A stretch of DNA of 40,058 nucleotides from Candidatus Bathyarchaeota archaeon. GTDB lineage: Archaea; Thermoproteota; Bathyarchaeia; Bathyarchaeales; Bathyarchaeaceae. The stretch lies in contig JAUWDY010000015.1 of NCBI GenBank assembly GCA_030608565.1, positions 1 through 40,058 on the forward strand. The letters run 5' to 3'. Position 1 is the first letter of the stretch; the number at the start of each line of letters is the position of its first letter. The notes under the pieces are model-generated. The model worked only from the letters and a program-made list of their open reading frames with translations, had not been told where the DNA came from and did no database searches. Below, piece by piece: positions 11,810-29,316 of this stretch. The translations under genes were made by a program, and so were the position numbers.

Positions 11810-13120
11810 TTGGATAACAATGCCGTACTTGTAGTTGGCGGGGGCATAGCTGGAATACAAGCATCTTTAGACCTTGCCAATCGAGGGCTCACAGTCTATC
11901 TTGTGGAGAAATCCCCAACCATTGGCGGACGTATGGCTCAGCTTGACAAGACTTTCCCAACGATGGACTGTTCCATATGCATACTAGCCCCAAAAATGAT
12001 CGAGTGCTTCCGCCACCCAAACATCAAACTGCTCACGTGCTCAGAGGTTAAAGAAGTTAATGGTTCCGCTGGGAACTTCAAAGCTAAGATTTTGAAAAAC
12101 CCTAGGTTTGTTGACGCTGACAAATGCACTGGTTGCGGTATATGCACTGAAAAGTGCCCAGTTAAGGTACCCAGCGAATTCGACATGGGCATGGGGATGC
12201 GAAAAGCCGTCTACATGCCTTTTCCACAAGCGGTGCCTCGCATAGCCACAATAGACAAGGACCATTGTCTCTTCTTTCAGAAAGGAGTGTGCAGGATATG
12301 CGAGAAATTCTGCCAAGCACATGCGATTAACTTCGATCAAAAACCTGAGGAAATAACGCTTAATGTTTCAAGCATGATATTGGCCACAGGCTTAGAGCTT
12401 TATGATCCAGCGTCGATAACCGAGTATGGTTATAAACGATACAAGAATGTTCTTCTATCACTAGAATTTGAAAGGCTCATCAATGCTTCCGGACCAACCC
12501 GAGGAGAGCTTCTGAGGCCTTCAGACAACAAGCATCCCCACAGAATAGTTTTCATACAATGCGTCGGCTCAAGAACCCAACAAAAGGGATTACCATACTG
12601 CTCAAGCGTGTGCTGCATGTACGCCACAAAAGAGGCAATCCTAGTCAGAGAACACGATCCAAAATGTGAAGTTTACATTTTGTATATGGATCTAAGAGTA
12701 TTCGGGAAACGATTCCAAGAATTCGTCAGCAGAGCCAGAGACGAATGGGACGTTAAATACGTTAATGGGCGTCCATCCGCAATCCTAGAAGACCTTGTGA
12801 CAAAGGATCTTTTGGTTCGATACGTAGACATCATGGAAGGAAAGATTGAAGAGTTGCGTACGGATTTGGTTGTCCTTTGTCCAGCTTTAATTCCAAGAGA
12901 AGACAATAAGGTTCTGGCAAAAATTTTCAATTTAGAATTAAATGAATACGGCTTTTTCAAAACAAAAGATCCGTTACTTATGTCTGTTGAAACAAACGTA
13001 GAAGGAATCTTCGTTTGTGGATATTGTCAAGCGCCTAAGGACATTTCTGAGTCGGTCACGCAAGCCAGTGCGGCGGCCGCTAGAGCCGCGGAGGTAACTG
13101 TATCCGCTATTGTGGGGTAA
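11810..13120 (+). CDS. hdrA: HdrA-type protein, first module (lacks N-terminal domain and C-terminal ferredoxin)
   Basis: Only 436 residues. It starts directly at the FAD motif (VVGGGIAG, 8-15), then has MDCSICILAPKM (C54, C57), an inserted ferredoxin (C106/109/112/116 and C153/161/164/168), CVGSR and YCSSVCCMY, and ends after GIFVCGYCQAPKDISES. This is exactly the extent of the first module in the 1003- and 1006-residue fused HdrAs at 31495 and 35272. With the next gene, six bases downstream, it forms a split version of that bimodular protein. The start is TTG at 11810, with GAGG about ten bases upstream; no longer start restores an N-terminal domain. Role: FAD and ferredoxin-type electron transfer, possibly bifurcation, in a complex with 13127 and perhaps NfnAB. 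Confidence 0.88.
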   Translation: MDNNAVLVVGGGIAGIQASLDLANRGLTVYLVEKSPTIGGRMAQLDKTFPTMDCSICILAPKMIECFRHPNIKLLTCSEVKEVNGSAGNFKAKILKNPRFVDADKCTGCGICTEKCPVKVPSEFDMGMGMRKAVYMPFPQAVPRIATIDKDHCLFFQKGVCRICEKFCQAHAINFDQKPEEITLNVSSMILATGLELYDPASITEYGYKRYKNVLLSLEFERLINASGPTRGELLRPSDNKHPHRIVFIQCVGSRTQQKGLPYCSSVCCMYATKEAILVREHDPKCEVYILYMDLRVFGKRFQEFVSRARDEWDVKYVNGRPSAILEDLVTKDLLVRYVDIMEGKIEELRTDLVVLCPALIPREDNKVLAKIFNLELNEYGFFKTKDPLLMSVETNVEGIFVCGYCQAPKDISESVTQASAAAARAAEVTVSAIVG

Positions 13121-13126
13121 TGCCGA

Positions 13127-15265
13127 ATGGAAACGGGTAAAGAAGAAATAAGAATCGGCGTTTTTGTCTGCCACTGCGGCTTCAACATCGGCTCAGTGGT
13201 TGACGTACCAGCGGTTATGGAGTATGCTAAAACGTTGCCTAATGTTGTTTGCGCCGAAGAAGACCTCTACATGTGCTCATCTGCCGGATTAAATCTCATT
13301 AAGGAATGCATAAAGAAGTATAAGCTCAATCGAGTTGTAGTCGCATCTTGCACACCCGCAACCCATGAACCAGTTTTCAGAAATGCATGCGAAGAAGCTG
13401 GGTTAAACAAATACCTTTTTGAAATGGTCAACATAAGGGAGCACTGCTCATGGGTTCACATGCACCATCCAAAAGAAGCAACAGAAAAAGCCAAAGACCT
13501 TGTCAGAATGGCTGTTGCCAAAGCAAACTTCCTTGAGCCCCAAATAGAGCCTGAACTTGAGATAAATCCTTCAGCATTGGTAATAGGCGGGGGCATAGCT
13601 GGAATGACCGTGGCTATGTCCCTTGCAAGACAAGGCTTCAACGTCCACTTGGTTGAGAAGGAAGCGAAACTTGGTGGAATGCTAAGATACTTGTATAAGC
13701 TGCAGCCTACCGAACGTGACGCCTCAGAAATACTACATGAAGCTATTACAGCCGTCAAGGCCAACAGCAACATACACTTGCACACGTCAACCATCGTTCA
13801 AGAAGTGAAGGGTTTCATTGGAAACTTTGACGTAACGCTTCAAAAGAAGGGTTCAAACGAGCATGAACAAATCAACGTAGGTACAATAATCGTAGCCACA
13901 GGAGCCGAGGATTTCAAGCCGGTGGGAATGTATGGATATGAGGAAAATGAAAACGTTGTGACGCAGCTTGAGCTTGAACAGCTTCTTGAAAGGGGTGAAT
14001 TCAAAAAGCCTAAAAGGGTTGTTATGATCCAATGTGTCGGGGCCAGAGAAAAAACTGGCAGAACCTACTGTTCGAGAATATGTTGCATGGTCGCCCTCAA
14101 CAACGCTCTACTCCTCAAAAAATTGTGTCCAGATGTGGAAATCAACATACTTTTTCGCGACCTGCAAACTTACGGAGAATACGAAGATTTTTACCGTGAG
14201 GCGAGGGCGAAGTTCATCAATTTCATTCGCTACGATCAGGATAAACCTCCAAAAGTCACTTCAAGATCTGATGGAAAACTGACTGTTACAGTTTATGATG
14301 CGTATTTGGACGCTGTGATTGAAATTGACAGTGACTTGATTGTTTTATCAACGCCTTTAATTCAGCATGAAGACGGAAGAAAGCTTTCTCCAATACTTAA
14401 GGTACCTCTAGGTGCTGACGGCTTCTTCTTTGAGGCTCATCCAAAGCTTAGGCCTGTTGACTTTACATCAGAGGGCATATATGTTTGTGGCACAGCCCAC
14501 GGTCCGAAAAATGTTAATGAAAGCATCGCTCAAGCCTGTGCTGCAGCCTCCAGGGCAGCGATTCCGATGGCTACTAAAAGAATAAAGGCCGAAGCCGTTA
14601 AGGCATCAGTTGATGAGGACATCTGTGTTACCTGTGATGCATGTGTAGTTTCATGCATTTTCAACGCCATTGAGGCCTCATCCTTTGGACTGCCCAATAT
14701 TATCGAGGCTAACTGTAAAGGCTGTGGTGTGTGCGCAGCAGAATGCTCTATGGGCGCCATGCAGCTCATTCACTTCACAGATAAGCAGATTGTGGCGGCC
14801 ATTGAAGCGCTGTTCAAACCGAAAAAGCTTGCAGGCTTGGGTGATAGTTTCGAGCCGATTATACTATGTTTTGCATGCCAATGGTGTTCTTATGGTGCAG
14901 CTGACCTCGCGGGTATATCAAGAATTCAATATCCACCAAATGTCCGAATCTTGCGTGTTCCGTGTAGCGGCAGGGTGGATGTACTTCACGTTTTAAAGGC
15001 TTTTCAGAACGGTGCCGACGGAGTTATCATAACGGGATGCCTCATCGGCGACTGCCATTACATAGATGGTAACGTGAAGGCCGAAAGCAGAGTGGAAGTA
15101 ATGAAAAAATCCCTTCCAGCACTTGGCATAAATCCAGAACGGCTTGAAATAGGTTATGCTTCATCTTCTGAAGGGCAGAAATTCGCGACTATGATGACTA
15201 ATTTTGTGGAAAAAATAAGGAAGCTCGGACCGAATCCTTTAAGGGTTGAAGGCGGGGGCGACTAG
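13127..15265 (+). CDS. hdrA: HdrA'-type protein, second module, fused to MvhD
   Basis: 712 residues. The N-terminal HdrA iron-sulfur domain comes first (C15, C17, C50, C75, C107; FVCHCGFN, HCSWVHMHHP). A thioredoxin-reductase-like FAD domain follows (GGGIAG, about 154-159) that lacks both the CxxC-ILAPK segment and the inserted ferredoxin. Two 4Fe-4S motifs come next (CVTCDACVVSC near 500, CKGCGVCAAEC near 530), and then a full MvhD-like domain from about 578 with its cysteines (CFACQWCSYGAADLAG, PCSGRVD, GCLIGDCHY). MvhD normally passes electrons from hydrogenase to HdrA; here no hydrogenase is adjacent, and NfnA starts two bases after the stop. An NAD(P)H-linked rather than H2-linked input is therefore plausible. 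It pairs with 11810 as a split bimodular HdrA. Confidence 0.9.
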   Translation: METGKEEIRIGVFVCHCGFNIGSVVDVPAVMEYAKTLPNVVCAEEDLYMCSSAGLNLIKECIKKYKLNRVVVASCTPATHEPVFRNACEEAGLNKYLFEMVNIREHCSWVHMHHPKEATEKAKDLVRMAVAKANFLEPQIEPELEINPSALVIGGGIAGMTVAMSLARQGFNVHLVEKEAKLGGMLRYLYKLQPTERDASEILHEAITAVKANSNIHLHTSTIVQEVKGFIGNFDVTLQKKGSNEHEQINVGTIIVATGAEDFKPVGMYGYEENENVVTQLELEQLLERGEFKKPKRVVMIQCVGAREKTGRTYCSRICCMVALNNALLLKKLCPDVEINILFRDLQTYGEYEDFYREARAKFINFIRYDQDKPPKVTSRSDGKLTVTVYDAYLDAVIEIDSDLIVLSTPLIQHEDGRKLSPILKVPLGADGFFFEAHPKLRPVDFTSEGIYVCGTAHGPKNVNESIAQACAAASRAAIPMATKRIKAEAVKASVDEDICVTCDACVVSCIFNAIEASSFGLPNIIEANCKGCGVCAAECSMGAMQLIHFTDKQIVAAIEALFKPKKLAGLGDSFEPIILCFACQWCSYGAADLAGISRIQYPPNVRILRVPCSGRVDVLHVLKAFQNGADGVIITGCLIGDCHYIDGNVKAESRVEVMKKSLPALGINPERLEIGYASSSEGQKFATMMTNFVEKIRKLGPNPLRVEGGGD

Positions 15266-15266
15266 C

Positions 15267-16094
15267 TTGTACAACATAGTGACAAAACGGGAACTGGTTC
15301 CCCACATTAACCTATTCGAGTTTTCAGCCAAAGAAATAGCCGTGAAAACCAAGCCAGGACAGTTCATAATCCTAAGGGTGAATGAAAAGGGAGAAAGGAT
15401 TCCCCTTACCATGGCTGATGTGGACCCTGAAAAAGGGACGATAACAGTGGTCTGCCACGAAGTTGGCAAATCAACGAGACAGCTTGGACAGTTAGAAGAA
15501 GGAGATTGCATCCTTGACTTGTTGGGTCCTTTAGGAAAACCCGCTGAAATCGGAAAATTCGGAATCGTACTTTGCATTGGCGGCGGAGTGATGGTGGCTC
15601 CCTTATACTTTCAGGCTAAAGCCCTTCACGAAGCAGGCAACAAAGTCATTGGTGGAATTGGCGCAAGAACTGAAAATCAACTGATTTTCGAAAATGAAAT
15701 GCGAGAAGTATGTGATGAATTCTACGTGGCTACAGATGATGGAACAAGGGGCTACAAGGGACTGGGCTTCCTTGAGGAATTGCTCAAAGAAAGGAAGATT
15801 GACCGCGTGATAACTATGGGACCAATTTTGATGATGAAAAAAGTTTCAGAATTGACTCGTCCCTATAGCGTACCCACAATTGTGAATCTGATTCCAATAA
15901 TGGTTGATGGGATGGGGATGTGTGGAGCGTGCAGAGTAACTGTTGGCGGCAGAACACTGTTCGCTTGCGTTGACGGTCCGGACTTTGACGGGCATCAAGT
16001 TGACTTTGAGGAGTTAATGACTCGGCTGAAAATGTATTCCCCTCAAGAGAAGCTTGCGTTCGTATTTTACGAGGAGGGCGGAAGCAGCCTATGA
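15267..16094 (+). CDS. nfnA: NfnA/SudB-like FAD-[2Fe-2S] subunit (ferredoxin-NADP reductase type)
   Basis: A protein of 275 residues from TTG 15267 (YNIVTKRELVP), matching the usual NfnA start; a longer frame from 15246 overlaps the previous gene. It has the ferredoxin-NADP-reductase fold: KPGQFIILR and RIPLTMAD for FAD binding, GGGVMVAPLY for NAD(H), then a C-terminal [2Fe-2S] region, GMGMCGACRVTVGGRTLFAC (about 214-233). NfnA binds NAD(H) and, with NfnB, catalyses electron-bifurcating transhydrogenation between NADPH, NAD+ and ferredoxin in the cytoplasm. The same fold occurs in the dihydroorotate dehydrogenase electron-transfer subunit, but the following NfnB gene (ATGA overlap) decides the call. 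Its place in the HdrA operon suggests that the two flavin systems exchange electrons. Confidence 0.9.
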   Translation: MYNIVTKRELVPHINLFEFSAKEIAVKTKPGQFIILRVNEKGERIPLTMADVDPEKGTITVVCHEVGKSTRQLGQLEEGDCILDLLGPLGKPAEIGKFGIVLCIGGGVMVAPLYFQAKALHEAGNKVIGGIGARTENQLIFENEMREVCDEFYVATDDGTRGYKGLGFLEELLKERKIDRVITMGPILMMKKVSELTRPYSVPTIVNLIPIMVDGMGMCGACRVTVGGRTLFACVDGPDFDGHQVDFEELMTRLKMYSPQEKLAFVFYEEGGSSL

Positions 16095-17494
16095 GTAAGC
16101 CCAAACCCAAGGTTCGGAAAGAAGTCATTTCCATGTCCAAGCAAGGCCTTGAAGAACGCATCCAAAACTTCAACGAGGTGGCATTCGGCTACGCAGAGGA
16201 AGAAGCCGTGGCTGAAGCTGAAAGATGTCTGCAATGTAAAAAGGCCCCATGTGTGAAGGCATGCCCAGTGGAGGTGGACATTCCGGAATTCATAAGATTG
16301 ATTAAAGAACACAGGTTTGATGAAGCGATAAAGAAGGTTAAGGAAAAGAATAGCCTTCCAGCCATTTGTGGCAGGGTCTGCCCACAAGAGGAACAATGCC
16401 AAGCAGATTGCACGATGGGGAAAATCGGTGACCCGATTTCCGTTGGAAGATTAGAAAGGTTTGTGGCTGATTGGGAAAGAGAGCGTGGCTATGATGTTCC
16501 ACAAAAGTCTGCTTCTACAGGTAAGAGGGTGGCAATTGTAGGTGCAGGTCCGGCGGGTTTAACTGTTGCGGCGGACTTGACCAAGCTTGGACACGAGGTC
16601 GTCGTTTTTGAGGCTCTGAACAAGCCTGGGGGCGTACTTGTTTATGGGATTCCAGAGTTTCGGTTACCTAAAGCAATTGTCGCGGCTGAAGCTGAATACA
16701 TAGAGAAGTTAGGTGTTACTATCAAAACGAATGCAGTGATTGGAAAACTATACACTGTAGAGGAACTGCTTGAATCTTTTGACGCAGTTTTCGTAGGCAC
16801 AGGTGCGGGGCTTCCGCGCTTTATGAGAATACCTGGCGAAAACCTATGTGGGATCTACTCAGCCAACGAATTTCTAATACGTGTTAACCTGATGAAGGCA
16901 TACAAGTTTCCAGAATATGATACACCGGTATGGGTGGGAAAGAAGGTTGTGGTTATAGGTGGCGGGAACTCGGCTATGGACTCTGCGAGGTCAGCCCTTA
17001 GACTAGGAGCAGATGAAGTTTGGGTAGTTTACCGAAGATCGAGAAAGGAAATGCCGACTAGGATGGAAGAAGTAGAAAACGCTGAGGAAGAGGGAATAAA
17101 ATTCAAGTTTCTTTCTAATCCAGTTAGATATTTTGGCGATGAACGTAGCTGGGTAAAAGGAATAGAATGTATTGCGATGGAACTTGGAGAACCAGACGAG
17201 TCGGGACGCAGAAGACCTATTCCGATAAAAGGTTCCGAGTTTATTATTGATGTGGACACCGTGGTTGTAGCTATAGGGAACACTGCAAATCCATTAATTC
17301 AACAAACCACTGAAGGCCTTGAAGTCACTAAATGGGGTACAATAGTTGTTGATGAAGAAACTGGAAAAACCAGTAAGGAAGGAGTTTATGCGGGTGGAGA
17401 CATAGTTAGCGGCGTAGCCACAGTCATTAGCGCCATGGGAGCAGGCAAAAGAGCGGCAAGAGCCATACACGAATATTTGATGAACAAGAGATAG
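16091..17494 (+). CDS. nfnB: NfnB/SudA-like NADPH-ferredoxin subunit (GltD family)
   Basis: 467 residues, the normal NfnB/GltD length. The N-terminus carries the 4Fe-4S region CLQCKKAPCVKACPVEVDIP (C46/49/54/58) and CGRVCPQEEQCQADC. FAD-binding GAGPAG lies at about 151-156 with PGGVLVYGIPEFRL, NADPH-binding GGGNSAMDSARSALRLGA at about 290, then VYRRSRKEMP and the C-terminal GVYAGGDIVSG. All expected domains are present, unlike the truncated paralogue at 29437. As GltD it could serve glutamate synthase. Pairing with nfnA by an ATGA overlap supports the bifurcating transhydrogenase, which holds the bifurcating FAD in this subunit. It is the last gene of the 11810 operon; the next promoter follows at about 17558. 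Confidence 0.92.
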   Translation: MSKPKPKVRKEVISMSKQGLEERIQNFNEVAFGYAEEEAVAEAERCLQCKKAPCVKACPVEVDIPEFIRLIKEHRFDEAIKKVKEKNSLPAICGRVCPQEEQCQADCTMGKIGDPISVGRLERFVADWERERGYDVPQKSASTGKRVAIVGAGPAGLTVAADLTKLGHEVVVFEALNKPGGVLVYGIPEFRLPKAIVAAEAEYIEKLGVTIKTNAVIGKLYTVEELLESFDAVFVGTGAGLPRFMRIPGENLCGIYSANEFLIRVNLMKAYKFPEYDTPVWVGKKVVVIGGGNSAMDSARSALRLGADEVWVVYRRSRKEMPTRMEEVENAEEEGIKFKFLSNPVRYFGDERSWVKGIECIAMELGEPDESGRRRPIPIKGSEFIIDVDTVVVAIGNTANPLIQQTTEGLEVTKWGTIVVDEETGKTSKEGVYAGGDIVSGVATVISAMGAGKRAARAIHEYLMNKR

Positions 17495-17653: not shown

Positions 17654-17896
17654 ATGAGCTCAGATACAAAACCGACTGAAGTTTTGGATGTAAGAGGAGA
17701 AGTGTGTCCATACCCAGATGTAAAGACTCAGAAGAAAGTGAAGAGCATGAAATCAGGCGAGATACTAGAGGTTCTCGTTGATTATCCGCTATCTGCGGAG
17801 CGAATACCGCGATCAATGGAAAAGTCTGGACATGAGGTTCTGAAAGTGGACAAGAAAGGGACGAGCGACTGGAGCATACTAATAAAGGTAAAGTAG
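17654..17896 (+). CDS. tusA: TusA-family sulfur carrier
   Basis: An 80-residue protein with the family signature [18 protein letters not shown]18 in CPYP is the persulfide-carrying cysteine. TusA proteins relay sulfane sulfur between desulfurases, DsrE/TusBCD-type partners and downstream enzymes in the cytoplasm. Here it heads an operon with a YedE transporter and three DsrE-family subunits, the usual sulfur-import and relay grouping. In sulfur-oxidizing prokaryotes tusA and dsrE genes also accompany Hdr-like complexes, and Hdr genes flank this operon on both sides. Length and motif are normal. Confidence 0.92.
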
Positions 17897-17909
17897 AGAG
17901 GTAGAAACC

Positions 17910-18983
17910 TTGACTGATGTAGAACTAATGCTTTATGGGCTAGTCGTAGGGGCAATCTTCGGCTTTGTACTGCAACGTGGACGTTTCTGTATGAACTCAG
18001 CATTCAGAGATATCCTAGTGATGAAAGAATATACGCTGCTTAAGGCGGTTGCACTGGCAATACTTGTTCAGATGATTGGCTTCCACCTCATGGCAACAAT
18101 GGGATGGATTAGCCTAAATCCTAAACCATTGTTGTGGGGTGCAATGATTGTTGGCGGTTTCATTTTCGGAATAGGAATGGTTTTGGCTGCGGGATGTGCC
18201 AGCGGAACAACCTATAGAGTCGGAGAAGGCATGGTGGGATCTTTCGTCGCATTACTCGGCTTAATGATTGGTGCTGTTGTAACCAAGGTAGGCGCTTTGG
18301 CGTGGCTAGCTGCGGACTTGAAATCTGGCATCTTCAAGACGATAACTACAGGTGATTTGGGAGTTGACCCTGGACCTTTACTTAAAGAAGGAAGCACAAG
18401 TCTAACATTAGCCAATATATTCGATTTAGATCCGTGGATTTTCGTGGCGATTATAGCTGTTGTCATTCTGGCTGCTCTAGTATGGAAACGTGGAGGCGAA
18501 GAAACCAAGGTGGAAGGAACACTGTCCGAAAGAATATTCAAGAAAGGTTGGAACTGGTGGGTCACAGGCATTGCTATAGGAATCATTGGCATGATAACCT
18601 TCTGGACTTTCAAGAACTATGCTTTAGGGATTTCCGGTGGATGGTTCGGTTTTCTGAATGCTTTGATAACCGGTGAACTTCACAGATTATCCCCAGAGAT
18701 GCTAAACTGGTTCACGTTCCTAGTAATTGGTGTGGTAGGTGGTGCTGCTATTGCCGCTGTCATCGCTGGTGAGTTTAAGTTAAGGGCACCAGATGCAAGG
18801 CGACTGTTACAACAGTTTGTCGGTGGATTACTTATGGGCATAGGCGCTATCATTGGAACAGCATGCAACATTGGACACATATTAAGTGGCATACCTCAAC
18901 TATCACTAGGCAGCATGCTCGGCGGGGCATTCATCATTCTAGGATGCTGGGTAACCGCTTACATCATGTTCATGAGAGGATAA
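17910..18983 (+). CDS. yedE: YeeE/YedE-family sulfur-compound transporter
   Basis: A 357-residue integral membrane protein with about nine to ten hydrophobic segments. The family-typical half-repeats are visible: GFVLQRGRFCMNSAFRD near the N-terminus, AAGCASGTTYRVGEG in the first half, and GTACNIGHILSG near the C-terminus. The cysteines in these re-entrant loops conduct thiosulfate or related sulfur species in characterised members. The start is TTG at 17910 with GAGGT upstream, 13 bases after tusA. It probably imports thiosulfate, or a persulfide-type substrate, that is handed to TusA. The substrate is inferred from family and context only. Confidence 0.9.
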   Translation: MTDVELMLYGLVVGAIFGFVLQRGRFCMNSAFRDILVMKEYTLLKAVALAILVQMIGFHLMATMGWISLNPKPLLWGAMIVGGFIFGIGMVLAAGCASGTTYRVGEGMVGSFVALLGLMIGAVVTKVGALAWLAADLKSGIFKTITTGDLGVDPGPLLKEGSTSLTLANIFDLDPWIFVAIIAVVILAALVWKRGGEETKVEGTLSERIFKKGWNWWVTGIAIGIIGMITFWTFKNYALGISGGWFGFLNALITGELHRLSPEMLNWFTFLVIGVVGGAAIAAVIAGEFKLRAPDARRLLQQFVGGLLMGIGAIIGTACNIGHILSGIPQLSLGSMLGGAFIILGCWVTAYIMFMRG

Positions 18984-18984
18984 G

Positions 18985-19332
18985 ATGCCAACCCTAGGTT
19001 TCCTCTTTTTTTCAGGACCTTACCAATCTGAAAGTCCAGAAACAACAATCGAACTAGCAAAAGCTGCATTGGAAAAAGGCATGAAAGTCAAGATCTTCTG
19101 CTACATGGATGCAGTTAACTGTGTGAAAACAGGGCAAAAGAAGGTTCCAGGCGTAATGAACATAGAAGAACAATTCAGAGAACTAATTGCGAAAGGAGCA
19201 GAAGTTCGCTTATGCACACTCTGCATGCTTGTACGAGGAACAAGAGACTACATTGAGGGCGCTAAGAGGGCTGGAACACCCGATGTTGCAGACATTGTGG
19301 AAGAATCCGACAGAGTTCTAGTAATCTTTTGA
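18985..19332 (+). CDS. dsrE: DsrE/TusD-like sulfur relay subunit
   Basis: A protein of 115 residues with the DsrE fold opening (LGFLFFSGPYQSESPETTIE), a conserved helix (ALEKGMKVKIFCYMDAV), and RLCTLCMLVRG, where C77 or C80 sits at the active-site position of TusD/DsrE. It begins one base after the yedE stop, so it is translationally coupled. It would accept persulfide sulfur from TusA or pass it on, as part of a DsrEFH-type heteromultimer with the next two genes. Confidence 0.82.
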   Translation: MPTLGFLFFSGPYQSESPETTIELAKAALEKGMKVKIFCYMDAVNCVKTGQKKVPGVMNIEEQFRELIAKGAEVRLCTLCMLVRGTRDYIEGAKRAGTPDVADIVEESDRVLVIF

Positions 19333-19346
19333 GGGGTGGAAGAAGC

Positions 19347-19682
19347 ATGTCTAAAAAGATTGTTGTTATATTGAGGAAGCCTCCACACGGCTCTCTGTTT
19401 CCAGCTGAGGGTTTAAGAGTGGCTGTAGCAATCAGTGCATCTGAAACTAAAGTTGTTTCCATAGGGGACAGCGTATATGCATTTCTGAAAAAAACTGACA
19501 TGACACTTTACAAGCACCATCTAGATTTCTTGAAGGAAACCGAAGTACCAGTACTGATTGACAAGGATTCGCTGGAAGGGCGTAAGCTAACTGAAGGAGA
19601 TTTGGTGGAGGGTGTCACGGTGAAAGAACGTGATGAAATCCTCAACGTAATAGCTGAAGCAGACGCTACGCTAACATTTTAG
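19347..19682 (+). CDS. dsrF: DsrF/TusC-like sulfur relay subunit
   Basis: A 111-residue protein from ATG 19347, with GGGGTGG shortly upstream; a TTG start at 19329 would overlap dsrE and add six residues. IVVILRKPPHGSLFPAEGLR and AVAISASETKVVSIGDSVYA match the TusC/DsrF half of the DsrE superfamily, with VLIDKDSLEGR before the last strand. It contains no cysteine, which is usual for this non-catalytic subunit. Its position between the DsrE- and DsrH-like genes supports the assignment. Confidence 0.8.
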   Translation: MSKKIVVILRKPPHGSLFPAEGLRVAVAISASETKVVSIGDSVYAFLKKTDMTLYKHHLDFLKETEVPVLIDKDSLEGRKLTEGDLVEGVTVKERDEILNVIAEADATLTF

Positions 19683-19692
19683 GTGATGCATT

Positions 19693-19995
19693 ATGGCTAA
19701 GATACTTTATTTCGTAACAGACATGGACCCAATGAGTATGAGACTTGCTTTAGAACATAAAGACAGTGAAGTTGGAATATGTCTGCTGCAAGATGCAGTT
19801 TACTTTGGATGCAAAGGAAGAAAAGGAAATGGAACACTGGTCGAAGCGAAAAAACGAGGTATCCGCGTCTTCGCGGCCAAGAAAGATGTTGAACTGCGAG
19901 GTTTGACGAGCATGCTTTACCCAGATATCAAGGTTCTGGACTATGGCGAAATAATAGACTTGGTCCTCGATTTCGAACGAATAGTCAACATTTAG
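19693..19995 (+). CDS. dsrH: DsrH/TusB-like sulfur relay subunit
   Basis: 100 residues, typical for TusB/DsrH. VGICLLQDAVYFGCKGR resembles the family core, and LDYGEIIDLVLDFERIVNI its C-terminal helix. Third of three adjacent DsrE-family genes, it completes an EFH trio. In characterised systems only the E and H subunits carry functional cysteines; here C31 and C40 are candidates. A T-rich terminator follows at once. Confidence 0.8.
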   Translation: MAKILYFVTDMDPMSMRLALEHKDSEVGICLLQDAVYFGCKGRKGNGTLVEAKKRGIRVFAAKKDVELRGLTSMLYPDIKVLDYGEIIDLVLDFERIVNI

Positions 19996-20219: not shown

Positions 20220-21167
20220 ATGGTAGAGGAAAAACTGAAATTCGCTTTCTACTGGGCTGCTAGTTGCGGAGGCTGCGAAATAGCGGTGTTGGACATAAAC
20301 GAAAAAATCCTAGATGTCGTTGCTAAAGCAGATATTGTCTTTTGGCCAGTCGCTATAGACATCAAATACAAAGATGTGGAAGCAATGCCCGACAAATACA
20401 TAGATGTCTGCTTCTTCAACGGTGCTATTAGAAACGAAGAGCAGGAACACATGGCTAAACTCTTGAGAAAAAAATCAAAGGTCCTCGTAGCCTTCGGCTC
20501 ATGCGCCTGTGACGGCTGCGTCGTTGGTCTTGGAAATCTCTGGGACAAAGAAACAATCTTTGAACGAGCGTACTTTGAAACGCCCTCGACGAAAAATCCT
20601 GAATCAGTGACACCAAAAACTTCCGTCAGAGTCAAAGAAGGAGAGCTGGAACTGCCTGAATTCTATGACACTGTCAAAACCCTAGGTCAGACTGTAGACG
20701 TGGACTATTTTCTCTCCGGTTGCCCACCACCAATTCCTTGCATACTTCAAGCGGTAGAAGCGATATTCAACAATAAGTTGCCTCCAAAAGGATCAAGTTT
20801 GTTGCCGAACAAGTCCATTTGCGATGAATGCCCACGAGAGAAAAAGGACAGAAAGCTTTCTGAAATAAAGAGGATTTACGAAATCGACGACGACCTAAAA
20901 ACTTGTTTTTTGGATCAAGGGGTGATATGTATGGGTCCAGCAACACGAGCGGGCTGCGGCGCACAGTGCCCAAACGTAAACGTTCCTTGCACCGGTTGTG
21001 ATGGGCCAGGCCCTCTAGTAACAGATCAAGGCGCCGCCATAACAAGCGCGCTTGCATCAATCGCCACCGATCTCAAGGTCATTGAGCAGGCAGTGGACCC
21101 CATAGGAACCTTCTACAAGTATTCTCTTGCTAACTCCATTCTCCGAAGGAGAGTGATCAAAAAATGA
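20220..21167 (+). CDS. mvhG: F420-non-reducing [NiFe] hydrogenase small subunit (MvhG type)
   Basis: About 315 residues from ATG 20220, which has GGTGATC four bases upstream and puts the protein directly at KLKFAFYWAASCGGCE, the normal N-terminus. Frames from 20106 or 20181 would include promoter sequence. Cysteines of the proximal cluster (CGGCE, FGSCACDGC, SGCPPP) and of the extra clusters (CDECPREKKD, GCGAQCPNVNVPCTGCDGP) are all present. MvhG carries electrons from the Ni-Fe site to MvhD and HdrA in the cytoplasm. Its stop overlaps mvhA by four bases. The electron acceptor here is presumably the MvhD domain fused to the HdrA at 22631. Confidence 0.93.
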   Translation: MVEEKLKFAFYWAASCGGCEIAVLDINEKILDVVAKADIVFWPVAIDIKYKDVEAMPDKYIDVCFFNGAIRNEEQEHMAKLLRKKSKVLVAFGSCACDGCVVGLGNLWDKETIFERAYFETPSTKNPESVTPKTSVRVKEGELELPEFYDTVKTLGQTVDVDYFLSGCPPPIPCILQAVEAIFNNKLPPKGSSLLPNKSICDECPREKKDRKLSEIKRIYEIDDDLKTCFLDQGVICMGPATRAGCGAQCPNVNVPCTGCDGPGPLVTDQGAAITSALASIATDLKVIEQAVDPIGTFYKYSLANSILRRRVIKK

Positions 21168-22621
21168 AAGAAATAGTCATAAACCCAGTCACAAGACTGG
21201 AAGGCCATGGAAAAATAACAATATTCCTAAACGACGAAGGAAACGTAGAAAACGCCTACTTTCAAGTCCCAGAACTCAGAGGCTTCGAGAAGTTCTGTGA
21301 AGGACGAAGAGCAGAAGACCTACCAATAATAACCACCAGAATCTGTGGCGTCTGCCCAGTTGCTCATCACATGGCGGCTGCAAAGGCCTTAGACGCAGCG
21401 TTCAATGTAGAACCGACTGAAACGGCTAAGAAATTGCGAGAGCTGGAATATTGTGCCTATTTTATCTACGATCACATACTCCATTTCTATTTCTTGGGAG
21501 GCCCGGATTTCGTCGTGGGGCCAGATGCTCCACCAGCAAAAAGAAACATCCTGGGGGTGATAGAGAAGACGGGCTTGGAAATTGCCAAAGAAGTAATAAA
21601 ACACAGAGCCTATGGACAGAAAATCACAGGCATGATCGGAGGCAGACCAACTCATCCCGTGAGTGCATGTCTGCCAGGCGGAATTTCAAAGGCATTGTCT
21701 GAAGAGGAAAGGCAAGAAATCGAAAAAATGCTTAGAAGCTGCGGCGAGTTTGCCAAGTTTTCTCTGAAACTCTTTGAGGATATCGTTCTCAAAAACGTTG
21801 ACTATGTAAACTTGATCAAAAGCGAGCCTTACACCTTAAAGACCTATTATATGGGCACAGTTGATAAAAACAACAAAGTAAACTTCTATGATGGCGACAT
21901 ACGAGTAGTCGACCAAGAAGGTAAGGAATTCGTCAAGTTCACGCCTTCAGAATATTTGAACATCATCGAAGAACATGTTGAACCATGGACCTACGTCAAA
22001 CTGCCATATCTCAAGAAAATCGGATGGAAAGGCTTGGTTGACGGTCCAGAAAGCGGAATCTACAGAGTTGGACCTTTAGGAAGATTGAATGCTGCGGACG
22101 GTATGGCAACACCCAAAGCACAAGAAGAGTACGAGAGGATGTACAAAACCCTCGGCGGAAAACCAGTTCACGCCACCTTGGCTTTTCACTGGGCTCGACT
22201 GATAGAGCTCATGTATGCAACCGAAAGAGCCTTGGAATTAGTCACAGACAAAGGGATAACGAGCAAAGATATCAAGAACAAACCTGGAAAGCCCGGCGAA
22301 GGAGTTGGAATAGTCGAGGCTGCTAGGGGAACCTTGATTCACCATTATATACTGGATGAAAAAGCCTTAGCCAAGAAAGTTAACTTGGTCGTGGCTACAA
22401 CTCACAATGCACCGGGCATTTGCATGTCCGTAAAAAATGCTGCAAAAGGCCTTATACACAACGGTAAAGTCAGCGATGGACTGCTGAACATGGTGGAGAT
22501 GGCCTTCAGAGCCTACGATCCATGCTTTGCCTGTGCAACCCACTTCGCCATCGGTAAGATGCCTTTAGAGGTTAAGATTTACGATAACGAGAAACAGCTC
22601 TTAAAAACGATAAGAAGGTAA
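21164..22621 (+). CDS. mvhA: F420-non-reducing [NiFe] hydrogenase large subunit (MvhA type)
   Basis: 485 residues. The N-terminal Ni-binding motif is RICGVCPVAHH and the C-terminal one DPCFACATH, giving the four cysteines that hold the Ni-Fe centre. LEGHGKI near the N-terminus is also typical. About two dozen residues follow the last histidine (ending LKTIRR). This is the kind of C-terminal extension removed by a maturation protease, so the enzyme is of the processed type. No maturation protease gene is in the window, but hypF begins at its left edge. It oxidises or produces H2 for the adjacent HdrABC. Confidence 0.95.
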   Translation: MKEIVINPVTRLEGHGKITIFLNDEGNVENAYFQVPELRGFEKFCEGRRAEDLPIITTRICGVCPVAHHMAAAKALDAAFNVEPTETAKKLRELEYCAYFIYDHILHFYFLGGPDFVVGPDAPPAKRNILGVIEKTGLEIAKEVIKHRAYGQKITGMIGGRPTHPVSACLPGGISKALSEEERQEIEKMLRSCGEFAKFSLKLFEDIVLKNVDYVNLIKSEPYTLKTYYMGTVDKNNKVNFYDGDIRVVDQEGKEFVKFTPSEYLNIIEEHVEPWTYVKLPYLKKIGWKGLVDGPESGIYRVGPLGRLNAADGMATPKAQEEYERMYKTLGGKPVHATLAFHWARLIELMYATERALELVTDKGITSKDIKNKPGKPGEGVGIVEAARGTLIHHYILDEKALAKKVNLVVATTHNAPGICMSVKNAAKGLIHNGKVSDGLLNMVEMAFRAYDPCFACATHFAIGKMPLEVKIYDNEKQLLKTIRR

Positions 22622-22630
22622 GGGATTAAA

Positions 22631-25051
22631 ATGAACGAAGTAAAAGTCGGAGTATTCCTATCTGACTGCGGAAACCAACTCTCTAAAATTCTAGACTTCA
22701 ACGCTCTAACCAATTATGTGAAAGACGTTTCAGATGTGGTTCTCGTCAAGAGAAACAGTGAGTTTTGGCGTGGCGAAGGATTACGGATCATCGTGGACGC
22801 TGTTAAAGGTGGAAAAATAAACCGAGTAGTCGTTGCGGAGAGTCTCCCGAAGCTAAGCGAAGTGAGCATCGTTCAAGCAGTTGAAGAGGCGGGTCTCAAT
22901 CCCTATCTAGTGGAAGTCATTGACCTCAAAGACCATTGTGCGTGGCCTCATCGGGAAACACCAAAAGAAGCCACAGAGAAAGCCAAGGCCATGCTCCTAG
23001 CCGCCACAGAACGCGCCAAGCTTCTCGAACCCATAGAGAAACTCGAGTTTCCAGCCCTCAAATCTGTCCTGGTCATAGGCGGAGGAATAGCTGGTATGCA
23101 GGCAGCTGTAGATCTGGCGGATTTGGGATTCGAAGTAGACTTGGTTGAAAAAGAGCCGTTTCTCGGTGGCTTGGCTGCTCGTGCGGGCCGATTCTTCCCT
23201 ACGGATGATTGTGCGATCTGTATACAGTCCCCGGCCTCAGATGTGAAAACCATTACTCACACCTCTCGGAAGTGCGTATATCGTTCTGGCTTCACTGAGA
23301 TTCCCAACTTAAACATACTTGCCAATTCGAAAGTCGTTGGTGTTGAAGGGGTCCCTGGGAACTACAAGGTTACGATAGAGAAGAAACCGAGATATGTTAA
23401 CGAGCTGAAATGTGTTCGTTGTGATCTGTGCACTCCTGTTTGCCCCGTGGAAGTGCCAGATGAATACAATGCGAAGTTGAAAACCCGCAAAGCCATTTAC
23501 ATGATCACCCCGAACGTTCATCCCCCTGTCTACGTCATCGATGAAAGCGTCTGCAAATTTCGCGACTGTGCCAAATGTGTTGAGGTTTGTCCGACCGACG
23601 CCATTGAACTGGACCAGAAAATCGAGCGGGTAACCCTGAACGTAGGCAGCATTATAGTAGCCACGGGTTTCCAAGAGTTCGATTCCAGCGTCATAAAGGA
23701 GTATCACTACGGCGACTACCCAGATGTCATAACCAATCTTGAACTCGCAAGGATGATCGACGGCTTCGGCCCCACAGGTGGCACGATAATAAAGCCTTCA
23801 GACCGCAAACCTGCCAAGAAAATTGTTATGGTTCAATGTGTCGGCTCGCGAGACAGGCGATGGAATCCATATTGCTCGAGCATCTGCTGTATGATCTCTC
23901 TAAAACACGCCTCACTGATCAAAACAGCCTATCCCGACACAGACGTTACCGTATGCTACATAGACATAAGAACCACTGGAAGAGAGCACGAATATTACTA
24001 TGAACGGGCCAGAGAGATGGGCGTAAAGTTTGTTAAAGGTAGACCAAGCGAAATCTCACGGGATCCAGAGACGGGCAGGTTAATCGTCGATGTTGAGGAT
24101 GAACTTCTGAAAAGGTTCTTGGAATTAGATGCTGATCTTGTTGTATTGGCCCCTGCTATGGTACCAGCGGAAGGCACGAAGGAGCTAGCCGAGATTCTAG
24201 GCCTTGAGTTGGAGGAAGACGGCTTCTTCAAGGAATATAACGCGAAACTAAGGCCAACAGAGACCAAGCTAAGAGGTATGTATCTCTGCGGAGGAGCAAC
24301 TTTCCCAAAGGACGCACCGACAACTTCACTGCATGCTCACTCTGCGGCTATGAAGGCTGCGAAGTTCTTGATCACCGGCAAGATAGTTAAGGATCAGAGA
24401 ACGGCTGTGGTCAATGAAGAATATTGTGGTGATTGTGAGTTCTGTCCGGTGACTTGTCCTTATGGCGCGATAAGTTTGGAGCCAACGAGTGAAGATCACA
24501 TCGTCGCTCGGATATCTGACCTCCTGTGTGAAGGATGTGGTATTTGCGTGGGAACTTGTCCACTCAACGCTATTGAGCTTAGGCATTCAAGGCCAAACCA
24601 GATGCTAGCTCAGATGAAAGCACTTATGTCCATAAACGGAACATCGAAGCCCTTGATACTGACTATATGTTGTTCAGAATGTGGCCACGCCGCCGTAGAC
24701 TCTTCTGGCATGGCTATGATGCAGTATCCAGCTAACGTAAGGGTCATGAAGGTTCCTTGCACAGGAATTCTGCAGGTTCACCAATTTCTAGAGGCTTTTA
24801 AAGTGGGCGCTCAAGGAGTGATGGTTGTGGGATGCAAAAGTGATGGTTGCCACTACGAGGTCGGTAGCCAGCAGGCTGAAAAGAAGGTGGCGCTTGCCAG
24901 AATGTTGTTGAAGGAATATGGTATAGAGCCAGAAAGGTTGGAGATGTTCAATATGGTGTACATTGAAGGCGACAAGTTCGCTGAGGCTGCGCAAACGATG
25001 ACTGAGAGATTGAAGAAATTGGGTAAACTGCAGTTAATGGAAGGCTCTTGA
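22631..25051 (+). CDS. hdrA: HdrA fused to MvhD, hydrogenase-linked
   Basis: 806 residues. The N-terminal HdrA domain is degenerate: of the five conserved cysteines only those in LSDCGN (C13) and DHCAWPH remain, so its cluster is probably absent. The FAD domain has GGGIAGMQ and the CxxC in DDCAICIQSP, followed by an insertion relative to the other copies. The inserted ferredoxin (CVRCDLCTPVC, CAKCVEVC), CVGSRDR and two C-terminal 4Fe-4S motifs (CGDCEFCPVTC, CEGCGICVGTC) follow. The MvhD domain keeps cysteines in CCSECGHAA, PCTG and GCKSDGCHY. A physical HdrA-MvhD fusion beside mvhGA and hdrCB suggests one H2-driven HdrABC-Mvh complex, bifurcating electrons to ferredoxin and a disulfide-type acceptor. 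Confidence 0.93.
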   Translation: MNEVKVGVFLSDCGNQLSKILDFNALTNYVKDVSDVVLVKRNSEFWRGEGLRIIVDAVKGGKINRVVVAESLPKLSEVSIVQAVEEAGLNPYLVEVIDLKDHCAWPHRETPKEATEKAKAMLLAATERAKLLEPIEKLEFPALKSVLVIGGGIAGMQAAVDLADLGFEVDLVEKEPFLGGLAARAGRFFPTDDCAICIQSPASDVKTITHTSRKCVYRSGFTEIPNLNILANSKVVGVEGVPGNYKVTIEKKPRYVNELKCVRCDLCTPVCPVEVPDEYNAKLKTRKAIYMITPNVHPPVYVIDESVCKFRDCAKCVEVCPTDAIELDQKIERVTLNVGSIIVATGFQEFDSSVIKEYHYGDYPDVITNLELARMIDGFGPTGGTIIKPSDRKPAKKIVMVQCVGSRDRRWNPYCSSICCMISLKHASLIKTAYPDTDVTVCYIDIRTTGREHEYYYERAREMGVKFVKGRPSEISRDPETGRLIVDVEDELLKRFLELDADLVVLAPAMVPAEGTKELAEILGLELEEDGFFKEYNAKLRPTETKLRGMYLCGGATFPKDAPTTSLHAHSAAMKAAKFLITGKIVKDQRTAVVNEEYCGDCEFCPVTCPYGAISLEPTSEDHIVARISDLLCEGCGICVGTCPLNAIELRHSRPNQMLAQMKALMSINGTSKPLILTICCSECGHAAVDSSGMAMMQYPANVRVMKVPCTGILQVHQFLEAFKVGAQGVMVVGCKSDGCHYEVGSQQAEKKVALARMLLKEYGIEPERLEMFNMVYIEGDKFAEAAQTMTERLKKLGKLQLMEGS

Positions 25052-25072: not shown

Positions 25073-25591
25073 GTGAAGCAAGGAAAAGAAGAAAAAACAA
25101 CCAATCAAGCGTTTTCTGATGTAATTACGAGTCGTTTAGGCGGCGAAACTATAACCCTATGCTACCAGTGTGGAACCTGTGCCAGTAGTTGTCCAGTAGC
25201 CAGAATAACGCCCCGTTTCAATCCTAGAGAAGTCATCAAACTATCGCTGTTAGGAGAAAAGGACGAAGTGCTTTCAGGCGACGCCATTTGGCTATGTTGC
25301 TCGTGTTATAACTGCCAAGAAAGGTGTCCCCAAAAAGTTGAGATAGCTGACGTGATATATGCGTTAAGAAACATAGCTGTCAAAGAGGGCAACATCCCAA
25401 ACATTTATTCAGAGTTTGCAGCCGAGTTAATAAACGAAGGTCGCATAGTTCCAATCTCCAAATTCTTAGAAAAGAAAAGACCTGATCTTGGCTTGCCATC
25501 CCTTAAGCCTGTGGGTGTGGATGCGTTAAGAAAAATTTTTTCCATCACTGGGTTTGATAAGATAAAACAGGAGAAGGCAGAAGCATCATGA
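25073..25591 (+). CDS. hdrC: Heterodisulfide reductase subunit C
   Basis: 172 residues with two 4Fe-4S motifs, CYQCGTCASSCPVAR (about 30-44) and CCSCYNCQERCPQ (about 75-87), followed by ADVIYALRNIAV, the standard HdrC layout. HdrC wires HdrA to the catalytic HdrB. The start is GTG at 25073 (no ATG is available), with GAGGCG upstream. It overlaps hdrB by four bases. No membrane anchor (HdrE/DsrM type) follows, so the complex should be soluble. Confidence 0.93.
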   Translation: MKQGKEEKTTNQAFSDVITSRLGGETITLCYQCGTCASSCPVARITPRFNPREVIKLSLLGEKDEVLSGDAIWLCCSCYNCQERCPQKVEIADVIYALRNIAVKEGNIPNIYSEFAAELINEGRIVPISKFLEKKRPDLGLPSLKPVGVDALRKIFSITGFDKIKQEKAEAS

Positions 25592-26463
25592 CAAGTTATG
25601 CTCTATTTCTAGGTTGTACCATACCGGCTCGTCAGCCAAGCTATGAGGTGTCGGCAAGAAGAGCTCTGACCAAACTTGGAATAGAACTTGTTGATCTAGC
25701 TAACATGACGTGTTGCGCCCCTCCACCTGTGCAGTCTCTAGATTTAGAGACCGGCTTATCCATTGCCGCATACAACATCTGTCTAGCCGAAGAAGCCGAC
25801 CTCAACATAGTTACATTATGTACAGGCTGCTTTGAGTCTCTAGCTATGGCAAACGCCATGCTAAAGGAAAACGAGAAACTGAAGGCAAGGGTAAACCAAA
25901 TCTTGTCTAACGCTGGAAAGGAATTTGAAGGCAGCAAAGAAGTGAAACATTACCTACAAGTCCTGTTGAACGATGTGGGTCCAAATCGCTTAAAAGAGAA
26001 TGTATCCAAAAATCTGAGTAGCCTAAAAGTGGCGTCGTTTTCTGGTTGCCACCTGCTTAGACCAAGTGCACTTCTGAAATTTGATGATCCAGAGAAACCG
26101 TACATCTTTGATGATCTGATTGAGACGCTGGGTGCAAAAAGCATCTGGTACCGACACAAGTTGAAATGTTGTGGAGGGCTTTTAAGGGGCTACGCTGACG
26201 ATGTTGCTCTAGCCCTCGCCCGCGAGAAGATCGTTAATACTACTAAAGCAGGTGCTGACTGTATAGTGACTCTTTGCCCGTTCTGTTTCTTAACATTAGA
26301 CCTAGGGCAGGTGCTTATGAAGTCAACATTTCATGAAGAATACAATATGCCCGTTCTCCATTATTCTGAACTTCTCGCCTTAGCTTTAGGGATAGACCCA
26401 ACAGAGCTTGCGCTCCAATTCCACAAAATAAAAGTGTACAGTGTGCTAAACAAAATCGGCTAA
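25588..26463 (+). CDS. hdrB: Heterodisulfide reductase subunit B
   Basis: 291 residues, normal HdrB length, with two CCG-type cysteine regions that bind the two non-cubane 4Fe-4S clusters reducing CoM-S-S-CoB-like disulfides. The first has FLGCTIPARQPSYE (C10), TCCAPPP (C42, C43) and CTGCF (C78, C81). The second has SGCHLLRPS (C154), KCCGG (C194, C195) and CPFC (C230, C233). In the first, the usual CCG is CCA; the cysteines themselves are kept. With no methanogenesis genes in the window, the true disulfide or thiol substrate is open. Confidence 0.93.
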   Translation: MTSYALFLGCTIPARQPSYEVSARRALTKLGIELVDLANMTCCAPPPVQSLDLETGLSIAAYNICLAEEADLNIVTLCTGCFESLAMANAMLKENEKLKARVNQILSNAGKEFEGSKEVKHYLQVLLNDVGPNRLKENVSKNLSSLKVASFSGCHLLRPSALLKFDDPEKPYIFDDLIETLGAKSIWYRHKLKCCGGLLRGYADDVALALAREKIVNTTKAGADCIVTLCPFCFLTLDLGQVLMKSTFHEEYNMPVLHYSELLALALGIDPTELALQFHKIKVYSVLNKIG

Positions 26464-28722: not shown

Positions 28723-29316
28723 ATGTCTGAATGGAAAACCGTAAGTATAAGACAAGAACTCATAAAGGAGATCGAAAAAGCACGTAAAACAGGTCGTTAC
28801 CGAAGCACATCAGAATTCGTTTCAGAAGCCATTCGACTACGCTTGGAAGAACTTATGCGTGTTGGAGGAATTCCAGTAGAAAAACGCAAGAGATATCTTG
28901 AAGTGCCGGAGCAGCTGCTTTACACACCGAAACATACGTGGGCGCAAATAACGCCTGAAGGAAACATAAGGGTTGGTCTATCAGACTACGCACAAGGGCA
29001 CCTAGAAGGGATAGCCTACATTTACACAGAACTTATGGGAAAAGAAGTCAAGAAGATGGAGCCCTTTGGTGTGGCTGAAACATGGATGTTCATGTTTGAC
29101 TTGTACGCCCCAGTCAGCGGCAAAATCGTCAAATTCAATGAAAACCTCAGAAATGAACCGCACCTAATCAATGAAAAACCCTACGATGAAGGATGGATAG
29201 TAGAGATCAAACCCAAAAACTCGCTAACTCTGGAGCAGGAACTAAAAGACCTACTCAGCTTAAGGCAATACAAGAAGTGGACAAGTAAGCTTGAAGGCCG
29301 GATACGAGTAAAATAG
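28723..29316 (+). CDS. Ribbon-helix-helix regulator fused to a lysine-less glycine-cleavage-H-like domain
   Basis: 197 residues. 1-45 is a ribbon-helix-helix domain (TVSIRQELIKEIEKA, RSTSEFVSEAIRLRLEEL). From ~66 to 165 lies a clear H-protein/lipoyl-domain homologue: LYTPKHTWAQI, GLSDYAQGHLEGIAYI, DLYAPVSGKIV and the PYDEGWIVEIKP ending. In real H-proteins the lipoylated lysine sits in ESVKAVSD; here the same place reads ETWMFMFD, with M122 where the lysine should be, so it cannot be lipoylated in the usual way. The domain was probably recruited as a sensor or interaction module. It lies between two Hdr clusters, next to a palindrome before the NfnB-like operon. ATG 28723 follows AAAGGAGA. 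Confidence 0.85.
   Translation: MSEWKTVSIRQELIKEIEKARKTGRYRSTSEFVSEAIRLRLEELMRVGGIPVEKRKRYLEVPEQLLYTPKHTWAQITPEGNIRVGLSDYAQGHLEGIAYIYTELMGKEVKKMEPFGVAETWMFMFDLYAPVSGKIVKFNENLRNEPHLINEKPYDEGWIVEIKPKNSLTLEQELKDLLSLRQYKKWTSKLEGRIRVK

Follow-up and report, generated by a model that had tools for sequence, protein, structure and literature searches.

Sulfur-oxidising heterodisulfide reductase (Hdr), the sHdr system, operates together with TusA, DsrE and LbpA. Among published systems, the closest to the one treated here is a cluster named YTD, also called yeeE-tusA-dsrEFH type II (PMC13293266). In the passages of that paper dealing with gene context, YTD occurs mostly in genomes with reductive dsrAB (73.9%), and archaeal cases are found with dsrMK or qmoAB; no linkage to a [NiFe] hydrogenase-Hdr complex was found in its passages, and its main text contains neither the word 'hydrogenase' nor 'Asgard' (PMC13293266). 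The dsrEFH genes were also noted in 40 dark-matter metagenome-assembled genomes of several phyla, the relevant passages making no link to Hdr or hydrogenase (PMC7495880). More broadly, a search of the open-access literature by titles, abstracts and term counts, with subscription papers and supplements outside its reach, returned no paper that connects Hdr and hydrogenase to TusA or DsrE for Asgard archaea or Bathyarchaeia. Here we describe a five-gene operon, tusA-yedE-dsrE-dsrF-dsrH (the cassette), at positions 17654-19995 of a 40,058-nucleotide stretch (the window) from Candidatus Bathyarchaeota archaeon (contig JAUWDY010000015.1). The window makes up the entire contig G000:C5 of a 1.76 Mb genome, G000, that is 98.5% complete. 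The cassette is a known sulfur relay in a new form, recurrently joined to an H2-Hdr complex. A sequence-only reading of the window had placed a sulfur-relay operon between an Nfn/Hdr and a Vhu(Mvh)/Hdr block, and both Pfam matches and profiles of the flanking genes bear this out.

The five genes are arranged in tandem on the + strand with intergenic gaps of 1-15 bp, and all five proteins score above the curated Pfam cut-offs. The sulfur carrier TusA (17654..17896; PF01206, 81 bits, E 4e-23) has its catalytic Cys18 in the motif CPYPD; its best NCBIfam match is YedF, at 70 bits against a cut-off of 79. The YedE/YeeE (TsuA-like) sulfur-compound importer (17910..18983; PF04143, 274 bits, E 3e-81) reaches 307 bits against the TsuA equivalog, under the cut-off of 400, and matches the YeeE structures 6LEO and 8J4C at E 2e-65 to 9e-64, Spirochaeta YeeE (TsuA) being the closest solved structure. 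Its Cys27, Cys96 and Cys319 align to positions 22, 91 and 293 of 6LEO, which we take to be the functional cysteines of YeeE; entry 6LEP has alanine at the second of these three positions in the printed alignment. The DsrE/TusD-like subunit (18985..19332; PF02635, 72 bits) carries an active Cys77 that aligns to Cys78 of Allochromatium DsrE (2HY5), described as functional in the passage concerned (PMC13293266). The DsrF/TusC-like subunit (19329-19682, probable start ATG 19347; PF02635, 45 bits) contains no Cys and matches TIGR03010 at E 4e-10, below cut-off. The DsrH/TusB-like subunit (19693..19995; PF04077, 47 bits) narrowly misses TIGR03011 (47.3 bits vs a cut-off of 49.2). Among related archaeal cassettes, counted by rows with a recovered open reading frame (ORF), TusA Cys18 is kept in 29/29, DsrE Cys77 in 36/36, and YedE Cys27, Cys96 and Cys319 in 35/35, 36/36 and 36/36; the TusA count is lower owing to contig ends and overlooked ORFs. 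Judged from these sequences, the operon genes are of a working type and not chance frames, and the earlier description of TusA, YedE and a DsrEFH-like trio as an import-and-relay set holds, with five families matched and the cysteines intact. A scan for sigma-70 promoters, a type wrong for an archaeon, and for terminators gave nothing beyond the shuffled expectation.

The linkage to hydrogenase and Hdr genes recurs outside the window. When named genomes were scanned with three YedE proteins, 131 relatives emerged, of which 80 were kept (34 Asgard, 21 Chloroflexota and 25 other loci). All but one of the 34 Asgard loci carry at least one of dsrE, dsrF and dsrH; vhuG or vhuA lies near yedE at 16, hypD, hypE or hypF within 5 kb at 12, and either at 20. 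One locus, L046, has no readable YedE ORF. The hyp genes were found by motif and are profile-confirmed only in L070, where hypE-hypD follow dsrH, and in L065 (hypF); several Lokiarchaeal operons run on into hypE-hypD-hypF. The control consisted of 17 loci from other bacteria in which the YedE ORF could be read, and VhuA, VhuG, HdrB or HdrC stood nearby at 0/17; six of the 25 other loci have no readable YedE ORF, and two archaeal ones (L033, Bathyarchaeial, and L084, Thermoprotei) were excluded. Because these loci had been chosen by similarity, the count was redone on 195 evenly drawn Asgard genomes, of which 42 have any YedE match and 28 a close one (best match at least 49% identity, E up to ~1e-55; 14 weaker or short matches were left out). 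In 14 of these 28, vhuA lies within 10 kb of yedE, and in 10 within 4 kb; distances were taken from VhuA matches of at least ~37% identity, short fragments among them, with lower-identity matches omitted. Copy number and genome size together predict 0.17 such genomes at the 10-kb distance (binomial tail 4e-24, which overstates certainty because the genomes are related, broken contigs acting in the opposite direction).

Within Bathyarchaeia the cassette is rare: a close YedE (at least 65% identity) occurs in 3/256 genomes of the class, and any YedE match in 16/256. Directly upstream of vhuG it was found in two families, represented by the window and by genome G143, and these were the only two such adjacencies. 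The order in G143 is HdrA piece-NfnA-NfnB-[two genes]-tusA-yedE-dsrEFH-AsnC/Lrp-type regulator-vhuG-vhuA-hdrA2-hdrC-hdrB. Its congener G144 has a clean empty site, with ~150 bp where G143 has ~3.5 kb, between flanks of 93% and 96% DNA identity. In G003, a congener of the window genome, the HdrA-Nfn block adjoins an inverted vhu-hdr block and there is no cassette; a different yedE-tusA-rhodanese operon stands elsewhere in that genome (L030:9427-11306). The third bearer, G177, is of the same order as the window genome; its cassette is flanked on one side by hypF, a [NiFe]-hydrogenase maturation gene, and on the other by genes for a regulator and a ferredoxin and by one that is complex-I-30kDa-like. 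AsnC/Lrp-type regulators with a Cys-rich tail lie between the cassette and the next genes at L028:978-1553 and L029:7855-8430, and none stands beside the cassette of the window.

Trees of YedE and VhuA bear on how this arrangement arose. In the YedE tree, the Asgard and the Chloroflexota sequences fall into one well supported clade apiece, a single Thermoprotei record joins the Bathyarchaeial sequences (98/89), and one Bathyarchaeial clade has only weak support (62/13). In the VhuA tree, the final version of which omits L155 (its linked label being unproven), duplicate rows and six distant rows (L039, L156-L160), window VhuA nests in cassette-free Bathyarchaeia, G143 VhuA is sister to that of cassette-free G144, and the VhuA of Hodarchaea and Lokiarchaea branches separately. 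This tree requires six changes of linkage state, at least 5 of them forced by supported branches. On the simplest reading, the cassette came beside resident vhu-hdr sets more than once, losses or transfers within groups not being separable from gains. Transfer of the whole cassette-vhu-hdr block from Asgard archaea to Bathyarchaeia was rejected, window VhuA being 92-93% identical to that of cassette-free Bathyarchaeia and ~42% to the Asgard form.

The usual partners of such relays are missing. Both mcrA (TIGR03256; control matches in two methanogens) and the NIR_SIR domain common to DsrAB and any sulfite reductase (PF01077; control matches 11/14) were matched in 0/5 Bathyarchaeial genomes, G000 included. 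DsrC/TusE (PF04358) was matched in 0/17 genomes, G000 and Asgard bearers included, its control match being in E. coli only. Rhodanese has no match in G000, and 6/9 genomes searched do have one. A genome search for dsrAB, mcrA and rhodanese, of the kind that the sequence-only reading had suggested, thus finds none of them in G000. That reading had also excluded dsrAB and a complete sHdr set; the first part stands for the genome, and the second for the window, to which the search for an sHdrC1B1A-hyp-C2B2 set with lipoylated LbpA was limited and where none was found. It had named complete mcr and CoB/CoM pathways together with a non-conserved neighbourhood as findings that would tell against it; mcrA is absent, and vhu/hdr or hyp genes recur beside the cassette in Asgard archaea and in a second Bathyarchaeial family. 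With no DsrC/TusE and no sulfite reductase in G000, neither a Dsr route nor a TusE-dependent tRNA route is therefore available there. A second TusA and a second DsrE are encoded elsewhere in G000, by an operon that also contains NifU and a cysteine desulfurase-like gene of the class-V aminotransferase family.

What the sequences show directly is which genes are there, that their cysteines are intact, that the partners are absent and that the linkage recurs; from this we infer a transport substrate, an order of transfer, persulfide reduction by HdrB, its direction and bifurcation. The reading we favour, to which we give about an even chance, is that the operon is an accessory module for sulfane-sulfur import and relay, giving the resident H2:Hdr complex a persulfide substrate. 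YedE would import thiosulfate or a polysulfide-type compound, TusA would take up its sulfane sulfur in the form of a cysteine persulfide, and this sulfur would then pass to DsrEFH, on Cys77 of DsrE. The terminal acceptor would most likely be HdrB of the neighbouring Vhu-HdrABC, because the genome has no DsrC or DsrAB and the window no sHdr set. The twin non-cubane clusters of HdrB could then reduce the persulfide to sulfide with H2 electrons arriving through VhuAG, and HdrA2 might send a second electron to ferredoxin. A fuller and more tentative version, which we think less likely than not, is an H2-driven persulfide reductase. TusA- or DsrE-bound persulfide would be the physiological high-potential acceptor of Vhu-Hdr; the complex would carry out flavin-based bifurcation in Bathyarchaeia and Hodarchaeota and take a simpler form, VhuGAU-HdrCB without adjacent HdrA, in Lokiarchaea, amounting to a soluble H2/sulfur respiration in non-methanogenic archaea.

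Several observations weigh against supplying Hdr as the task of the cassette. VhuA is present in 197/256 genomes of the class and close yedE in only three, so the Vhu-Hdr complex is class-wide and independent of the cassette. Between G143 and its empty-site sister G144, HdrB is 97% and HdrC 94% identical, and therefore no specialisation of HdrB accompanies the cassette. The operon is separated from vhuG in the window by ~225 bp, so that the two are only possibly co-transcribed, and the YedE-DsrEFH loci L038 and L085 are free of vhu and hyp genes for ~6-10 kb in both directions. The claim of the sequence-only reading that one HdrB is specific for cassette sulfur is not supported in view of the first two of these observations, and a dedicated, remodelled HdrB was rejected in view of the near-identical HdrB and HdrC of G143 and G144 and of a short HdrB loop (see below) that occurs with or without the cassette. 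The earlier interpretation is partly supported: the import-and-relay set with its intact cysteines, the lack of mcrA, dsrAB, DsrC and rhodanese in G000 and the recurring neighbourhood agree with it, and a persulfide is a hypothetical substrate of HdrB.

Class-wide Hdr, near-identical HdrB, unlinked loci and the spacing in the window therefore leave room for the main rival, in which thiosulfate sulfur is relayed to cysteine or to iron-sulfur (Fe-S) assembly and the cassette lies near hydrogenase and Hdr genes as those enzymes need many clusters. This is a serious explanation, if on balance an unlikely one. E. coli YeeE-YeeD serve thiosulfate assimilation according to the passages that discuss them (PMC11073785, PMC13293266), hydrogenase maturation genes stand within the same Asgard operons, and Bathyarchaeia seldom carry the cassette and can do without it, as would suit a nutritional accessory; however, the second TusA and DsrE with NifU and the class-V aminotransferase suit that task, and it is Vhu/Hdr and hyp genes to which the cassette is linked. 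Defence against sulfane-sulfur stress, or redox sensing, in which excess polysulfide is taken up or disposed of and H2 is only an incidental reductant, would account for the Cys-rich-tailed regulators that adjoin the cassettes of L028 and L029 and for an OsmC-like gene in L034 with a similar frame in L035. An importer would be odd in a detoxification set, though, and G000 has no rhodanese, which makes this improbable.

Three further explanations appear much weaker. A supply of selenium by YedE/YedF-type genes for selenoprotein synthesis was considered, as in Lokiarchaea such genes would adjoin a selenocysteine (Sec)-containing VhuU, TusA has YedF as its below-cut-off best match, an in-frame stop marks the expected Sec site of L037 VhuU, and selD scores above cut-off in 9/17 genomes. 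It was set aside as very improbable: selD does not track the cassette, being without a match above cut-off in the bearers G000, G143, G256, G257, G259 and G266, and window VhuA has Cys. Least credible of all is tRNA 2-thiolation of the TusABCD-E-MnmA type, which would make sense of the homology of DsrEFH to TusBCD; like a Dsr function it was set aside for want of DsrC/TusE (0/17 genomes), and the operon includes an importer and its close YedE is confined to three of 256 class genomes, unlike a housekeeping function. A chance or hitch-hiking neighbourhood, functionally unconnected to Hdr, might be argued from the mere two direct vhuG adjacencies in Bathyarchaeia and from the commonness of Hdr genes; against 14/28 Asgard genomes where 0.17 were expected (related genomes not being independent) and at least five linkage changes forced on the VhuA tree, we consider it highly unlikely.

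If the cassette does supply persulfide to Hdr, H2 may reduce sulfur through an Hdr enzyme in a few Bathyarchaeia and many Asgard archaea, adding an H2-to-sulfane route in archaeal relatives of eukaryotes. Its linkage provides a testable candidate for what a non-methanogen Hdr reduces in cassette bearers, for which the pair G143/G144 is a natural comparison; it leaves Hdr unaccounted for in the many genomes without a cassette.

The blocks that flank the operon are on the + strand. Upstream of the operon lie an HdrA piece, an HdrA-FlpD piece and NfnA-like and NfnB-like genes (11810..17494), a block that G003 shares without the cassette. Downstream follow the hydrogenase small subunit VhuG (20220..21167, start inferred, longest ORF from 20106; PF01058, VhuG profile E 5e-67), the [NiFe] hydrogenase large subunit VhuA (21164..22621; VhuA profile E 6e-126), whose C-terminal motif has Cys and not Sec, HdrA2 fused to a FlpD/MvhD domain, the flavin electron-bifurcation subunit (22631..25051; NF040770 HdrA2, E 1e-233), HdrC (25073..25591; TIGR03290, E 1e-37) and HdrB (25588..26463; TIGR03288, E 8e-98), which is closely related to the HdrB of methanogens (5ODC_B, E 2e-77). 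HdrB has ten CCG cysteines and a shortened loop after the second CCG, reading CCG-GLLRG vs CCGAGGGVR in the five solved methanogen HdrB matched. Among 25 aligned genomic HdrB, the long loop is retained in just one, an additional HdrB from G008, and the short loop occurs with and without the cassette. In sequence terms the change would fit a different substrate, yet does not point to the cassette. Window HdrB also looks mosaic at protein and DNA level, its N half resembling its own family f1 (G003) and its C half family f7 (G143, G144, G164); a connection with the cassette was ruled out, as cassette-free f7 genomes have the same C half. Farther downstream, a protein with a ribbon-helix-helix at its N terminus and a GcvH domain (28723-29316) adjoins a second large array, NfnB-FlpD-HdrA-FlpD-HdrA-FlpD-HdrC with an HdrB cut by the contig end (29437-40058). 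The lipoyl site of the GcvH-like protein, as we take it to be, reads ETWMFMFDLY and has no lysine.

Loci in other groups vary in composition. Lokiarchaeal vhuG-vhuA-(vhuU)-hdrC-hdrB sets whose loci yielded no HdrA2-like gene occur at L037:12388-16702 and in L063, L070, L072, L073, L074, L075, L077, L083 and L090; it would be unusual for electrons from H2 to reach HdrB with no bifurcating subunit alongside. VhuG is longer (413-438 amino acids) in L037, L063 and L070, and that of L070 has no FlpD domain. A short VhuU-like frame at L037:15016-15322 is interrupted where Sec would be expected, by an in-frame stop ahead of LSCAAH. HdrC, HdrB and a formate dehydrogenase alpha subunit (above cut-off) stand directly upstream of tusA-yedE-dsrEFH-hypE at L065:5911-9355. 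In Chloroflexota, an HdrC-like gene lies within 1.4 kb at 16/21 YedE loci, and four annotated loci have a FlpD-QmoA/B-like-QmoC-like-DsrE2-TusA-YedE type of order. L036, L044, L066 and other Anaerolineales loci carry a FlpD-QmoA-like-QmoB-like-HTH-QmoC-like-DsrE2-TusA-YedE cluster, the first gene of L036 being a partial PUA_2, presumably of the ATP-sulfurylase N-domain type.

Compared with described systems, the locus combines familiar parts in an unfamiliar setting. Like YTD, it unites in one cluster a YeeE/YedE importer, TusA, a DsrE with one active Cys, DsrF and DsrH; unlike YTD, it stands in a genome without dsrAB or DsrC and is linked to a [NiFe] hydrogenase-Hdr complex. With the DsrEFH/TusBCD of Allochromatium and E. 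coli it shares a three-subunit relay and the equivalent of Cys78, but its proteins fall below the equivalog cut-offs and have no DsrC/TusE partner. In sHdr, as we understand that system, TusA/DsrE-type donors likewise adjoin an Hdr-type enzyme; here, however, the enzyme is hydrogenase-linked, an HdrA2-FlpD fusion takes the place of the sHdr gene set, and the GcvH-like protein of the window lacks what we take to be the lipoyl lysine. The YeeE-YeeD (TsuAB) pair differs in that the window has a separate TusA and DsrEFH relay and a YedE below the TsuA cut-off, although YedE matches solved YeeE (E 2e-65) with the three essential Cys kept; thiosulfate transport is putative here. Finally, unlike the methanogen MvhADG-HdrABC complex, the hydrogenase-Hdr complex of the window stands in a genome without mcrA and its HdrB loop CCGAGGG is shortened to CCG-GLLRG, but its subunits match those of MvhADG-HdrABC and VhuGA-HdrA2-HdrCB, and all ten CCG cysteines of HdrB are present.

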